Of a stretch of DNA of 30,530 nt, positions 8,775 to 19,127 are shown in pieces (positions within the stretch are counted from its first letter, which is position 1; each line of letters begins with the position of its first letter). This DNA comes from a virus. The translations under genes and the position numbers were made by a program. The stretch lies in the IMG/VR virus record IMGVR_UViG_3300042465_000444, positions 1 to 30,530 of that record; one strand, given 5' to 3'. The notes beneath the pieces are model-generated. The model was not told the DNA's origin. It saw only the letters and a list, made by a program, of their open reading frames with translations, and made no database searches.

Positions 8775-8852
8775 ATGGCACTCACACAAGTACAGCCAGG
8801 AATGCTGGCATCTGATTCGCAGTACACAGGGTTTAAAACTGCAGATGCTTGA
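8775..8852 (+). pseudogene. 25-codon remnant of a tail-protein start
   Basis: An ATG directly after the preceding stop opens a 25-residue frame beginning MALTQVQPGML and running to QYTGFK before a stop. Starts of this form (MALTQVxPGx...QYxGFK) are typical of phage tail or collar proteins that continue for hundreds of residues, so this looks like a stub left after a deletion or replacement. The stub's end overlaps the ATG of the homing endonuclease gene by eight bases. It could alternatively be a real leader peptide that couples translation to the next gene. Confidence 0.45.
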
Positions 8853-9393
8853 GGATACTGACACACGCCTGGCCGTGCATGAGGCGAAAGGGCCAGTCTC
8901 TTTCATTGGCAAAACATTTACTAAAGAATTGGTAAGTGAGTACATTGCTTATGACTCAAAGACTGGATCTTTTAAGCGCATTAAAACATCTGGCACAAAA
9001 AGGGTTGGTGACAAAGTTGGTGTTGAACATGATCGTTATTTGCAGATAAGCATTTGCGGTAAAAAAATTAGAGGTCATCAACTTGCTTGGTTTTTAACTT
9101 ATGGATATATACCCAAAACAATTGATCACATAAATGGTAATGGTCTTGACAATAGACTATGCAATTTACGTGAAGTAACTCAACAGCAAAATTGTCATAA
9201 TCAAAGAACAGCACCAAGACATAACACAAGTGGTTTCATGGGAGTTTCTTTTTATAAGGCTGGAAGTAAATATTCAGCTCATATAAATTTAAATGGAAAG
9301 AAGAAACATCTTGGATACTTTGATGATCCATTGATTGCCCACCAAGCATACTTAACTGCAAAAAGAAAGTTACATTCAACATGCTCGATATGA
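8845..9393 (+). CDS. HNH/AP2 homing endonuclease
   Basis: 182 residues. After a short foreign-looking N-terminus (about residues 1-20) comes a typical HNH_3 nuclease: YDSKTGSF near 39-46, then HQLAWFLTYGYIP, then IDHINGNGLDNRLCNLREVT with the catalytic His and Asn residues, then QQNCHNQ. A C-terminal AP2-type DNA-binding domain follows (SGFMGVSFYKAGSKYSAHI...KKHLGYFDDPLIAHQAY). Enzymes of this type make site-specific breaks that spread their own gene. It sits between tail and lysis genes in AT-rich DNA. The first 14 residues resemble the N-terminus of the next gene (see findings), so it has probably inserted into a copy of that gene. Start chosen at 8845 because upstream codons belong to the stub in another frame. 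Confidence 0.95.
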   Translation: MLEDTDTRLAVHEAKGPVSFIGKTFTKELVSEYIAYDSKTGSFKRIKTSGTKRVGDKVGVEHDRYLQISICGKKIRGHQLAWFLTYGYIPKTIDHINGNGLDNRLCNLREVTQQQNCHNQRTAPRHNTSGFMGVSFYKAGSKYSAHINLNGKKKHLGYFDDPLIAHQAYLTAKRKLHSTCSI

Positions 9394-11123: not shown

Positions 11124-11584
11124 TCCCAAACCCTTGGCTAATCATTGGCGCCTTAGTCATGGCTGCAAGCCTGTATTTCTATGGCCACCACAAAGGCTGG
11201 GCAGAGCGTGACCAGGAGATGCAAGCAGAGATCGCCATTAAGAATGAAGAGGCTCGAACCAAAGAGCAGGAACTTACCAAACAACTCAACGACAACTCTA
11301 CCAAGTTACTGGAGGCCAACAATGCCATTACTGAAAAACAGTCTAGTCTTAATCGTCTTATCCGCACTAGTAGCTTGCGGATCCAAACCCCAGGTTGTGT
11401 ACAAACCAGTGCAAGTACCGCCCCTGCCAGCGGAAGTAGCAGCCAAGCGGGAAGTGAATCTGACAGAGAGACTCTCCTCGCTATTGCAGAAATCGTCGCT
11501 CAAGGAGACAGGAACACAGCCCAGCTCAACGCCTGCATCGACAACTACAACAAAGTGATGGAGGCCGTAAATGTTAAACGCTGA
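11120..11584 (+). CDS. Inner-membrane spanin (Rz-like)
   Basis: 154 residues with one N-terminal membrane anchor (WLIIGALVMAASLYFYG) followed by a long charged, probably coiled-coil periplasmic domain (RDQEMQAEIAIKNEEARTK onward) and a C-terminal part with two Cys. This is the standard layout of the i-spanin, which with the Rz1 lipoprotein fuses inner and outer membranes in the last step of lysis of Gram-negative cells. A lipoprotein gene is nested in another frame inside it, which is the strongest support. ATG overlaps the previous stop (ATGA); its 3' end overlaps the endolysin start. Confidence 0.88.
   Translation: MIPNPWLIIGALVMAASLYFYGHHKGWAERDQEMQAEIAIKNEEARTKEQELTKQLNDNSTKLLEANNAITEKQSSLNRLIRTSSLRIQTPGCVQTSASTAPASGSSSQAGSESDRETLLAIAEIVAQGDRNTAQLNACIDNYNKVMEAVNVKR
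11322..11558 (+). CDS. Outer-membrane spanin lipoprotein (Rz1-like), nested in Rz
   Basis: 78 residues wholly inside the Rz gene in another frame. The ATG at 11322 has a strong GGAGG ribosome site at 11311-11315. The N-terminus is a lipoprotein signal with lipobox LSALVAC, putting the lipidated Cys at residue 19. The mature part begins with a Pro-rich segment (KPVQVPPLPAE), a hallmark of Rz1. The open frame extends upstream to 11181, but that part has no ribosome site or signal and is discarded. Together with Rz it forms the two-component spanin. Confidence 0.9.
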   Translation: MPLLKNSLVLIVLSALVACGSKPQVVYKPVQVPPLPAEVAAKREVNLTERLSSLLQKSSLKETGTQPSSTPASTTTTK

Positions 11585-12167
11585 GAAACTAGCCAAGCTG
11601 CACATCGGTGCTGACTGGGTTGATCCACTTAATGAAACCTTTGAGCGCTTTGGAATTTTTAGCCAGAATCAGCAGGCTACATTCATTGGCCAGTGTGGCC
11701 ATGAGTGTGGAAACTTCAGAATCCTGGAAGAGAATCTAAATTACAAAGCTGTAACGCTAATGAAGTTGTGGCCTAAAAGATTTCCCACACTGGAGGTGGC
11801 CAATGGCTACGCTGGAAACCCTAAGAAAATTGCAAATCAAGTCTATTCTTCTCGCATGGGTAACCGTGACGAAAATAGTGGTGACGGTTATCGCTTTAGG
11901 GGTAGGGGTTGTATTCAGCTTACTGGTCACTCTAATTATTTCCACGCTGGTAAAGCGCTGGGCGTGGATTTTGTTATGGACCCTGATCTTGTTGGCACTC
12001 CTAAGTATGCTGCTCTTACTGCTGGATGGTTTTGGTCTACCCACAAGCTCAATGCTCCAGCGGATGCCCTTGATCATGCCAAGGTAACCAAGATTATTAA
12101 TGGCGGGACAATAGGCCTGGAGGATCGCATCAAGCACACCCAGCAGGCCTTGTTAGTCCTGGCCTAA
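11571..12167 (+). CDS. GH19-type endolysin (chitinase-like lysozyme)
   Basis: 198 residues. Motifs of the glycoside hydrolase 19 fold as used by phage endolysins are clear: QCGHECGNF with catalytic Glu45, LEENLNY near 52-58 with a second acidic pair, RFRGRGCIQLTGHSNY around 108-123, and TKIINGG near the end. It should cut peptidoglycan glycan strands. There is no signal peptide, so it needs a holin to reach the wall, consistent with the membrane proteins upstream. A GGAGG site lies seven bases before the ATG, and the start lies inside the end of Rz. The stop overlaps the stop of the convergent RecT gene. Confidence 0.93.
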   Translation: MLNAEKLAKLHIGADWVDPLNETFERFGIFSQNQQATFIGQCGHECGNFRILEENLNYKAVTLMKLWPKRFPTLEVANGYAGNPKKIANQVYSSRMGNRDENSGDGYRFRGRGCIQLTGHSNYFHAGKALGVDFVMDPDLVGTPKYAALTAGWFWSTHKLNAPADALDHAKVTKIINGGTIGLEDRIKHTQQALLVLA

Positions 12168-14539: not shown

Positions 14540-14746
14540 TTAATTGGTTAAGTAGATGACTACCAAGGCCACGACACCAAGCACATAGATAGCTTTGTCG
14601 TAAGGCATTACAAGCAATTTAACTGGGGGATTTATCAATGAATCCTGGATGCGTAATTCATCGAGCGACATAGTGTGGCTTACCACAGGCTCATACCGTG
14701 AGCCTATGGCAACCTTGCCAGTGTTGTACGGTGTGGTCTTACGCAT
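14540..14746 (-). CDS. 68-residue membrane protein, unknown
   Basis: The open frame extends further upstream on the minus strand, but ATG 14746 is preferred because an AAGGAG ribosome site lies seven bases before it and the upstream part only shadows the recombinase gene. The N-terminal 45 residues are soluble (MRKTTPYNTGKVAIGSRYEP onward); the C-terminus is one hydrophobic helix (AIYVLGVVALVVIYLTN). Function unknown; a tail-anchored inner-membrane protein expressed early could act in host take-over or superinfection exclusion, but nothing in the sequence proves it. It overlaps the recombinase end by eight bases. Confidence 0.72.
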   Translation of the reverse strand: MRKTTPYNTGKVAIGSRYEPVVSHTMSLDELRIQDSLINPPVKLLVMPYDKAIYVLGVVALVVIYLTN

Positions 14747-15416
14747 GACTAAACTCCTTGAGGTTGATGTTGAGACGTTTGATAAGGGCGTTGACCTGGC
14801 TGGCTGCCCACTCGGTGTTACCACGTGGGGTTTGAACGCCACGAGTAGACAACTCTGCAGCCAGGTTACGCAAGGTGCTGGCGCCTGAGATAGCAATCAC
14901 ATCACGCAGGGTTGGGGCGATGCGGTCTGCATAGCTGTTAGCACGTGCCTGGATGGCAGCATTGCCTGCTGCAGAGCCGATCTCTGGTGTTGGGCAACCC
15001 AGTACTACCCCGCGGGCTTTGGCTGCTTGTAGAGCTGATTTAGTGCGCTTGGAGATCTCTTCACGCTCATGCTGGGCAACCACTGCACGTACACCGAACT
15101 CAAGAGTGCCAGCGTTTGGCATATCGGCAGCCACAATGTCCACGCCAGCCTTGCGTAAGGTCAACAGGAATGCTGCATCACGTGAGAGGCGGTCAATTTT
15201 GGCAATCAGGATGGCAGCGTTGTTGCGTCTGCAGAGATCGAGTGCAAGCTCCAGCTGTGGGCGGTTGTCGATCTTGCCTGACTCAATCTCTGTGAATTCA
15301 CCAATGATGTCTGCCTCATAAGAGCTGACCAGCTGGCGCTGTGATTCAAGGCCAAGACCAGAGTGACCCTGCTTGGCGGTAGATACACGGTAGTAAGCAA
15401 CGTATTTGGTGGCCAT
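14739..15416 (-). CDS. Small serine recombinase (resolvase/invertase family)
   Basis: 225 residues. The N-terminal catalytic domain is complete: YYRVSTAKQ with Arg10 and nucleophile Ser12, SGLGLESQ, IAKIDRLSRDAAFL with the catalytic Arg residues, and AVVAQHEREEISKRTKSAL forming the start of the long E helix. The C-terminal part (from about 170) carries a helix-turn-helix-like segment with TPRGNTEWAASQVNALIKR, common in small phage recombinases. It lacks the large C-terminal domain of serine integrases, so dimer resolution, inversion or regulatory recombination is more likely than integration. It is the second gene of the leftward operon. No matching crossover sites were recognised. Confidence 0.9.
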   Translation of the reverse strand: MATKYVAYYRVSTAKQGHSGLGLESQRQLVSSYEADIIGEFTEIESGKIDNRPQLELALDLCRRNNAAILIAKIDRLSRDAAFLLTLRKAGVDIVAADMPNAGTLEFGVRAVVAQHEREEISKRTKSALQAAKARGVVLGCPTPEIGSAAGNAAIQARANSYADRIAPTLRDVIAISGASTLRNLAAELSTRGVQTPRGNTEWAASQVNALIKRLNINLKEFSHA

Positions 15417-17372: not shown

Positions 17373-17599
17373 GACACAAGTACATCTACAGGAAGGCAAG
17401 CAATGCGCCCTCACCCAGCCTGGAATGCCTGCTGATGGCGTGTGGCAGAGAGTTGTTAACGACTTGGGAAGTCTTGCGGGACAAGGAGTTGATCGAGAGG
17501 CATCTAAAGGCGCTAGACGCTCTATATGGCGCAAACGCAGAGGCCAAGGTACGCCAGTACATGAGAGAGATCCACAGAAATGAGCGCAATGCCAGATAA
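17369..17599 (+). CDS. 76-residue unknown protein upstream of the replication gene
   Basis: Starts in an ATGA overlap with the zinc-ribbon gene; an alternative frame starting four bases earlier (17365-17583) is rejected because only this one shows ordinary helical protein composition. The sequence has CLLMACGRELLTTWEVLRDKELIERHLKAL and GANAEAKVRQYMREI, two or three helices. No family recognised. It overlaps the start of the replication gene by 20 bases, so it is probably translated with it. Confidence 0.7.
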   Translation: MRHKYIYRKASNAPSPSLECLLMACGRELLTTWEVLRDKELIERHLKALDALYGANAEAKVRQYMREIHRNERNAR

Positions 17600-18458
17600 C
17601 GTGCTGCCATTCGAGTTGCCTGCTAAACCCAGGCTGAAGCTGCAGGAGCCACTGCCAGACCAAAGGAAGATCGTGGTGCTGCCATTCAAGGCAGTGTTCG
17701 ACAAAGATCTGGGTGCAGCTGGCGTAGCAGTCCTGGCAGGCCTGTGTGCGTTCTGCAACCGTGCTGGCATTACCTGGGTTAGCCAAAGAAGACTAGCTGG
17801 TGACTTAGGCATAAGCCAGCCAGCGATCAGCAGGCAGATATCCAAGCTAAAGAAGTTGGGCTACATCGAGGTACTCAGGAAAGGCTATGCCAATGCCAGG
17901 AATGAGACAGTCAGAGTGATCTTTGATCCCACAATAACAGCTGAAGAGGCCATAGCCATGGTGTCTAACAAAGAGGATGCAAGGCCACCAGGACTCATAG
18001 CAGCTGAAGAAGAAAGGTTACAAAAAGAGGTAGACAAGGAAGGCCTCAGACGCATAGCAGAGATGCTAAAGGAATCCATCACCAACCGCAACAAAGTAAC
18101 ACCAAAGGAGTACGACATGAAGAGAAAGAACAAGGCAATAACGCCTGTGGATAACACGCCTACATCTGTGGATAAGTCAGTGGACAACAATGTGGATAAC
18201 TTAAATGAGCGATTACATAGGGTTATCAGTGTCGATAACATAGGGTTATCAAAAGACACGGTATTTAACACTATATCTATTAATATTAATGTTATGAACA
18301 ACAAACAATTAAAGCAGTATTCAAAAGCTGAGATTGAATCCAAGATCGAACTGCTGCTGCCTGCCTACCATGCCGAGGGCATCGAGCCTACCGAACAGGC
18401 GCTGGTTGATGGGATCATGCACATGATGGCAACCCAGACCAAGATGAATGCTGTTTAA
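17580..18458 (+). CDS. Winged-helix replication initiator protein with origin inside the gene
   Basis: 292 residues (ATG 17580; a second in-frame ATG at 17589). Residues about 38-118 form a winged helix: PFKAVFDKDLGAAGVAVLAGL, then WVSQRRLAGDLGISQPAISRQISKLKKLG (recognition helix near 78-92) and a beta wing with YIEVLRKG and ETVRVIFD. Residues 185-235 are a low-complexity linker in which VDN/VDK recurs; that stretch is encoded by DnaA-box-like DNA. A short helical domain (KAEIESKIELLLPAYHAEG) ends the protein. This layout resembles lambdoid O-type initiators: N-terminal DNA-binding domain, linker carrying the origin, C-terminal domain for host partners. No helicase loader follows, so host DnaA may supply that step. 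Confidence 0.82.
   Translation: MSAMPDNVLPFELPAKPRLKLQEPLPDQRKIVVLPFKAVFDKDLGAAGVAVLAGLCAFCNRAGITWVSQRRLAGDLGISQPAISRQISKLKKLGYIEVLRKGYANARNETVRVIFDPTITAEEAIAMVSNKEDARPPGLIAAEEERLQKEVDKEGLRRIAEMLKESITNRNKVTPKEYDMKRKNKAITPVDNTPTSVDKSVDNNVDNLNERLHRVISVDNIGLSKDTVFNTISININVMNNKQLKQYSKAEIESKIELLLPAYHAEGIEPTEQALVDGIMHMMATQTKMNAV
18146..18315. other. Putative replication origin: DnaA boxes, direct repeats and AT-rich stretch
   Basis: Three exact copies of TGTGGATAA (reverse complement of the strong DnaA box TTATCCACA) start at 18146, 18167 and 18191, all in one orientation, with a near copy AGTGGACAA at 18179. The last three starts are 12 bp apart, about one helical turn. They are followed by a 14-bp direct repeat ACATAGGGTTATCA at 18215-18228 and 18238-18251, with a related inverted GATAAC at 18234-18239 between them. 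Then comes an AT-rich stretch (about 18252-18315) suited to unwinding. The order (initiator boxes, iterons, AT-rich) is that of a DnaA-assisted origin, placed as in lambda within the initiator gene. Confidence 0.78.
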
Positions 18459-18794
18459 ACGCAATCTAAGCCACCTAGAAGGCCATGAAACCATCCAGTC
18501 AATATCAGGGTAGCCACATGGCACATCAAAGCCTTGTAGAGCCTGCTACCGTATGCTGTACTGAACTCAAACGAACGTATGGGAACAGTACAGGGGGGTG
18601 GCGTACCTATACAGAGGCATGGCAGGAGGGTGCTTGGGCATTGCAATCCTGCGTTGTAGCACTTTCGATGTACCCTCCCCCCACCCACCCACCTCACCGT
18701 AGGGGTACTTAAATGAATTTTTCCCCAATTTCTTTCTGTATACCTTTTACTACATTGGTATTTTCTCTATTTTTTCAACCAAAGGACTAAGTTA
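18459..18794. other. Non-coding intergenic region with hairpins and a quadruplex tract
   Basis: No convincing gene. The forward frame at 18485-18712 and the reverse frame at 18455-18697 both lack ribosome sites and have atypical composition. Contents in order: GGTAGC/GCTACC (18509-18514 and 18545-18550); an 8-bp inverted repeat CTGTACTG/CAGTACAG (18556-18563 and 18586-18593); a G6 run at 18593-18598; a C-rich tract at 18673-18690 flanked by GTACCC (18670-18675) and GGGTAC (18703-18708); then AT-rich, pyrimidine-rich DNA up to the next ribosome site (AAAGGA). Probably an untranslated leader or a structured regulatory or replication element. A promoter for the following genes probably lies in its 3' part, but I cannot assign boxes with confidence. 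Confidence 0.6.
18673..18690 (-). other. Canonical G-quadruplex motif on the minus strand
   Basis: Read on the minus strand the tract is GGG-T-GGG-T-GGGGGG-A-GGG: four G-runs of at least three with single-base loops, the arrangement known to give very stable parallel quadruplexes. The plus strand would be a cytosine-rich i-motif type sequence. It lies on the template strand for rightward transcription, about 360 bp past the putative origin. Confidence 0.8.
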
Positions 18795-19127
18795 ATGACT
18801 ACTAACTATGACAAACCATTTGAGCTAAGACCAGGTCAAGGCTCTGCGTTTAAGAACAAGGATAAGACTGAGGACTGGCATGCTGACTACAAGGGTGAAC
18901 TGCTACTGCCTGATGGCACTCTGCATTGGATTGATGTTCAGCCTGGTAAGACACGTGCTGGTGAGTGGTACTTCAAGATTAAGTTGGGTAAGCCAAAGCA
19001 GCCTAAAGAGAGTGGCCAAGCACAAGGCATGGTCTTGGACCAGCCAAAGCCTTTTGCTGCACCAGCTGCCAAACCTACCCCTGCTGCCAATGCTGTGGCT
19101 GCTATGGATGACGATATTCCTTTTTGA
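18795..19127 (+). CDS. SSB-like protein with acidic C-terminal tip
   Basis: 110 residues, with AAAGGA eight bases upstream of the ATG. The first 70 residues (QGSAFKNKDKTEDWHADYKG, then LHWIDVQPGKTRAGEWYFKIKLGK) form a small beta-rich domain of a type I know from phage genomes, plausibly a reduced OB-like fold. An Ala/Pro linker follows and the protein ends DDDIPF, the acidic peptide by which bacterial SSB proteins bind their partners. It should coat single-stranded DNA or at least recruit host SSB-interacting factors. Position after the replication gene supports this. Length is shorter than classical SSB (about 170). Confidence 0.78.
   Translation: MTTNYDKPFELRPGQGSAFKNKDKTEDWHADYKGELLLPDGTLHWIDVQPGKTRAGEWYFKIKLGKPKQPKESGQAQGMVLDQPKPFAAPAAKPTPAANAVAAMDDDIPF

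Follow-up and report, generated by a model that had tools for sequence, protein, structure and literature searches.

The initiator gene and its surroundings

The window, which is the whole 30,530-bp stretch of viral DNA that was analysed, encodes RecT-, YqaJ- and RuvC-like proteins, a single-strand DNA binding protein (SSB) and a resolvase. The SSB gene belongs to a replication/recombination block (18795-19127, plus strand; PHROG 18154, 8.7e-6). At 14739-15416 on the minus strand there is a serine resolvase N-terminal domain (PF00239) and the full recombinase domain is absent. The published report on Methylophilales phage MEP301 likewise describes a protein with the resolvase N-terminal domain and no full recombinase domain. 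Two genes lie further from the block. An HNH_3 endonuclease gene follows the tail genes (8845-9393) and is possibly a homing insertion, and a Glycoside hydrolase 19 (chitinase-like) protein encoded at 11571-12167 is a probable endolysin.

The replication initiator gene (17580-18458, plus strand) encodes a protein of 292 aa. The protein has a Pfam match to HTH_36 (5.7e-8) and moderate PHROG matches to replication-initiation and O-like groups (best 3.8e-8). PF04492 (Phage_rep_O) is absent among its Pfam matches up to an E-value of 0.1. An AlphaFold2 model built from 37 relatives (mean pLDDT 63.6) has an N-terminal winged helix, with helices and wing at residues 36-113, then a disordered linker (pLDDT below 50 at residues 170-230) and a C-terminal helical domain (helices at 231-291). 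A search of the full model against the PDB returned only generic MarR-like winged helices at E above 0.001, which does not allow a finer assignment. The recognition helix (residues 80-93, QPAISRQISKLKKL) is encoded at 17817-17858 on the plus strand and carries the motif QPxxSRQ, which pairs with GATAAC iterons. The codons of the predicted disordered linker (18087-18269, plus strand) overlap the DNA sites described below. The C-terminal domain (18270-18455, plus strand) was delimited from the model and from a comparison of relatives. It contains a conserved AEG.P motif, is swapped among phages independently of the winged helix and is a candidate contact to the host helicase machinery. After the initiator gene, at 18600-18790, a C-rich run (ccctccccccacccacccacc) gives way to AT-rich DNA. 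MEP301 has a similar C-rich run after its initiator gene (L082, about 855-880).

Boxes, iterons and AT-rich DNA within the initiator gene

Three exact DnaA boxes (TTATCCACA) are located on the minus strand at 18146-18154, 18167-18175 and 18191-18199, and there are no further exact copies in the 30.5-kb window. The site at 18179-18187 (minus strand, AGTGGACAA / TTGTCCACT) is a degenerate box with two mismatches. In several close relatives (L004, L009 and L002) this site is an exact or one-mismatch box. The array lies about 570 bp into the gene. Protein-preserving codon shuffles of the initiator gene contain a mean of 0.36 exact boxes, compared with the three observed, and none of 400 shuffles had three or more. 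When one mismatch is allowed, the whole window has 11 boxes against 7.5 expected, which is near chance; therefore, the evidence in the window lies in the exact cluster only.

The third box is followed, 20 bp start-to-start, by the first of two 17-bp palindromic iterons. Iteron 1 (18211-18227, GATTACATAGGGTTATC) has one arm mismatch, and iteron 2 (18234-18250, GATAACATAGGGTTATC) is spaced 23 bp from it. Both are within the initiator coding sequence and no other such palindromes occur in the window. A candidate unwinding element, assigned from composition and duplex stability, lies directly 3' of the iterons (18251-18321), as is the case in lambda O-type origins. The most AT-rich 60-mer of the window (82%) and its least stable 50-bp stretch both start at 18262, and both extremes are about 4 SD off the mean. 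The GC skew is weakly positive almost everywhere in the window and is uninformative on the position of an origin.

The original prediction, which was made before these scans, had described most of this arrangement. Its three exact boxes in one orientation, the near copy that sets a 12-bp step, the AT-rich stretch after the repeats and the placement of all elements within a winged-helix initiator gene were recovered. The two 14-bp direct repeats that it reported are real, but they are the right-hand parts of the two palindromic iterons. It also counted TTATCGACA at 18230 as a last near-box. This candidate was rejected as a DnaA box because it overlaps iteron 2 and because it is gone in L009, where the iteron is kept (CCCGATAAC).

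The predicted disorder falls exactly on the codons that overlap the boxes and iterons. Read on the coding strand, TGTGGATAA is free of stop codons in two frames only, which give VD[NK] and xWI, and the hydrophilic VDN/VDK reading is used here rather than the hydrophobic WI. It is therefore plausible, as had been proposed, that the linker is shaped by the DNA sites. The opposite direction of cause, in which selection on the protein maintains VDN/VDK and codon choice happens to produce the boxes, would fit the observations that almost every in-gene box in the family falls in one reading frame and that the protein motif persists. It is nevertheless extremely unlikely, since the shuffles fall far below the observed counts both in the window and across 70 sequences (6.3 exact boxes against 50 observed), the segment is predicted to be disordered, and the same boxes recur in the same frame in other initiators.

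Conservation of the boxes among relatives

A first scan of IMG/VR returned 80 loci with identities between 34% and 98%. After scans with other members as queries, the collection stood at 117 distinct full genes, and the linker and iterons are present in 95 of these. No close DNA relatives were found among isolated phages. Two scans of cellular genomes for a host returned one 5.9-kb MAG contig only (L083, Chloroflexi by title), which has 43% identity over the winged helix and is too weak a match for a host call.

DnaA-like boxes, defined as sites with at most one mismatch and no overlap with an iteron, are kept in 87 of the 95 linker-bearing genes. With few exceptions they share one strand; most lie 5' of the iterons, and tandem boxes are spaced by 12 bp. 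The 12-bp step is dominant in iteron types A, B and C (defined below). By type, boxes are present in 10 of 10 A genes, 54 of 58 B genes, 3 of 3 B5 genes, 19 of 19 C genes and 1 of 5 D genes. The distance from the last box to the first iteron is 20-23 bp start-to-start in most genes regardless of iteron type. Box positions are thus conserved while the protein linker diverges, which is the outcome that the original prediction expected of related phages. Many of the boxes of types B and C are TTGTCCACA, which differs from the E. coli consensus at one position. In the first set of loci, exact boxes number 55 in 23.8 kb of linker DNA and 5 in 561 kb elsewhere, an enrichment of about 260-fold.

Eight of the 95 relatives have iterons and no recognisable boxes, including four of the five type D genes and four of the 58 type B genes. 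This suggests that DnaA is not required in every lineage or is otherwise recruited. The type D genes in question (L189, L197, L202 and L217) keep the palindromic iterons GCAACCTCcaGAGGTTGC and contain no recognisable box, and the 4.8-5.0 kb of DNA around them is also free of exact boxes. Judged by sequence, they have lost the DnaA module in nature. A helicase or DnaC-like loader of their own was looked for in these phages and was not found on their contigs, which are partial.

Iteron types and recognition helices

In each group the boxes are closely followed by two or three palindromes, the sequence of which is specific to the group. Type A iterons, GATAAC(5)GTTATC, go with the helix QPxxSRQ, type B iterons, ACAACC(4)GGTTGT, with QQxx[SA]KQ, and type C iterons, GGACAC(6)GTGTCC, with RQxxTNQ. 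These three types were defined first. Genes with helices that did not fit, QQxxGKQ and RQxx[ST]KQ, then led to two new iterons, namely B5, which has the type B arms with a 5-bp gap, and D, GCAACC(6)GGTTGC. The type D member L107 has the helix RQxxTRQ and its iterons are degenerate. The helix motif predicts the iteron in all 10 QPxxSRQ genes, all 58 QQxx[SA]KQ genes and all 19 RQxxTNQ genes, although in 7 of the 19 type C genes the iterons are seen only when up to two arm mismatches are allowed. The matrix of types is fully diagonal, with 156 exact own-type palindromes in the genes and none of other types; outside the genes there are 2 own-type palindromes in 508 kb. In types A, B, C and D, AT content peaks immediately 3' of the final iteron. 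The AT alignment of B5 is disturbed by a spurious third iteron match.

Because the relatives share descent, the correspondence between helix and iteron rests on about five switches and not on 95 genes; a tree built from the N-terminal part requires about five changes to account for the five iteron types. Two mosaics indicate that the winged helix and the iterons move as a unit. The window and L012 are 97% identical in the C-terminal domain and 62% identical in the helix region, and their iterons are different. The window and L009 have the helix and iteron type in common, and their C-terminal domains are 50% identical. The correspondence suggests that the winged helix reads its iterons specifically.

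The boxes remain constant while the iterons and helix switch, and the distance between box and iteron is also nearly constant. This points to two recognisers, most simply the host DnaA and the phage initiator. The boxes could instead be extra sites for the initiator, given that they share an array with the iterons and that the DnaA assignment is read from their sequence. A single recogniser of this kind is very unlikely: its boxes would have kept their sequence through each change of iteron and recognition helix, they are non-palindromic, and in other initiators boxes of the same sequence lie next to different palindromes.

Comparison with known origins

In lambda, palindromic iterons are located in mid-gene O beside an AT-rich tract (PMC7466680). 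The same scan applied to lambda O as a control recovered the known palindromic iterons and the AT-rich stretch that follows them, and found no DnaA box. The window initiator gene resembles lambda ori in gene O, and its variants in Stx phages, in having an N-terminal DNA-binding domain and mid-gene palindromic iterons by an AT-rich tract. It differs in that lambda has four iterons and the loader gene P downstream, whereas the window group has two to three iterons, tandem boxes and no P.

The elements of the plasmid RK2 origin, going by its map and a figure legend, are in the same order as those of the window, and oriV sits outside the rep gene of the plasmid. RK2 oriV comprises DnaA boxes, iterons and an unwinding element (PMC4980987), and the window also combines these three. 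Unlike RK2, the window has them inside the gene and its iterons are palindromic. The Rep proteins of plasmids contain two winged-helix domains (PMC4980987), whereas the model of the window initiator has one winged helix and a different helical C-terminal domain. The proposal that the locus joins a lambda-style placement with a plasmid-like DnaA set holds for the elements and their order; it does not extend to membership in PF04492, a partner P or a Rep with two winged helices.

Gp55 of MEP301 is 40% identical over the winged helix, and SSB and terminase genes are located downstream of it as well. Unlike the window initiator, it has 201 aa and lacks the linker, the boxes and the iterons of the window group. 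Together with its group, this isolated relative accounts for 22 genes, whose short initiators lack the linker, the boxes and the five iteron types.

Exact box pairs 12 bp apart were found in at least 120 IMG/VR viral stretches (L219-L338), mostly intergenic among the matches listed. The notion that tandem boxes are unique to the window group was rejected on this count, and the boxes as such are not special. Many of these pairs could mark uncharacterised DnaA-assisted origins, or bacterial contamination. Among the matches listed, tandem boxes are inside three further and more divergent phage initiator genes, beside palindromes. One of these, on metagenomic contig L232 (9482-10477, minus strand), is a Phage_rep_O member (Pfam, 41.5 bits), unlike the window protein. 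It is like the window in having three exact in-gene boxes 12 bp apart, palindromes GGTAACTnnnnAGTTACC (GGTAAC/GTTACC) and then AT-rich DNA. No match to DnaB, IstB or lambda P was found in its 28.9-kb record. The O gene of Halomonas phage YPHTV-1, a single example with a replicative helicase gene after it, has no boxes and no such palindromes.

Proposed mechanism and its alternatives

The window probably has a phage origin within its own initiator gene, as in lambda, in which boxes, iterons and unwinding element follow one another as in iteron plasmids. This reading is well supported by the comparative evidence; it predicts DnaA binding and origin activity, and DnaA may also recruit DnaB. It is very improbable that the array is instead an operator controlling expression or a site that titrates DnaA. 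DnaA boxes can serve both transcription control and titration, but this array is well inside the gene, with iterons and the least stable duplex of the window beside it, and its elements are ordered like those of a plasmid origin.

The initiator, through its winged helix, would bind the two palindromic iterons, as the helix-iteron correspondence suggests, and would probably do so as a dimer since the sites are dyad-symmetric. Host DnaA would bind the three to four tandem boxes, a step suggested by their sequence, constancy and spacing. The last box is about 24-27 bp centre-to-centre ahead of the first iteron, and a joint complex of DnaA and initiator may melt the AT-rich stretch at about 18.26 kb. 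DnaA, the C-terminal domain of the initiator or both would then bring host DnaB with the host loader, and the host replisome would follow.

The original prediction had noted no helicase loader or DNA polymerase, and this extends to the relatives. No match to the DnaB, IstB/DnaC or Pol A families was found in 15 near-full-length records of 30 to 39 kb, lambda P (PF06992) is absent in 19 records and PF01695 is absent in 26. The published MEP301 report also states that no DNA polymerase was found (PMC8024684). With none of these families matched in the records covered, most of the replication work must fall to host proteins.

One step of the proposed mechanism is contested by an alternative that accepts the origin itself. 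DnaA may be an accessory that stabilises the opening or ties replication to the state of the host, with the C-terminal domain alone recruiting DnaB, an arrangement reported for certain plasmid Reps. We give this possibility somewhat less than an even chance. It agrees with the type D and type B genes that lost boxes while their iterons remain, with the conserved AEG.P motif, and with a plasmid review that describes contacts between Rep and DnaB and a requirement for DnaA at RK2 that varies with the host (PMC4980987). However, the retention of boxes at a near-fixed distance from the iterons in the great majority of genes suggests more than an optional role.

A broader proposal is made tentatively, and we consider it less likely than not. 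The locus may represent an undescribed and widespread class of origin in which in-gene host DnaA boxes replace the missing loader (lambda P), initiator/iteron pairs are swappable while the DnaA module is constant, and the arrangement has more than one origin among families of phage initiators. Searches of the open-access literature, mostly at the level of titles and abstracts, returned no description of such a phage origin.

If the origin reading is correct, two textbook designs, the in-gene iterons of lambda and the DnaA-assisted origins of plasmids, are joined in environmental phages. This would explain how replication starts in phages that lack a recognisable helicase, loader and Pol A. The one-to-one link between helix and iteron would provide a natural code of specificity, which swaps can test. 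The coding sequence would also have to satisfy two constraints at once, with the disordered linker fitted around DNA that is predicted to bind proteins.
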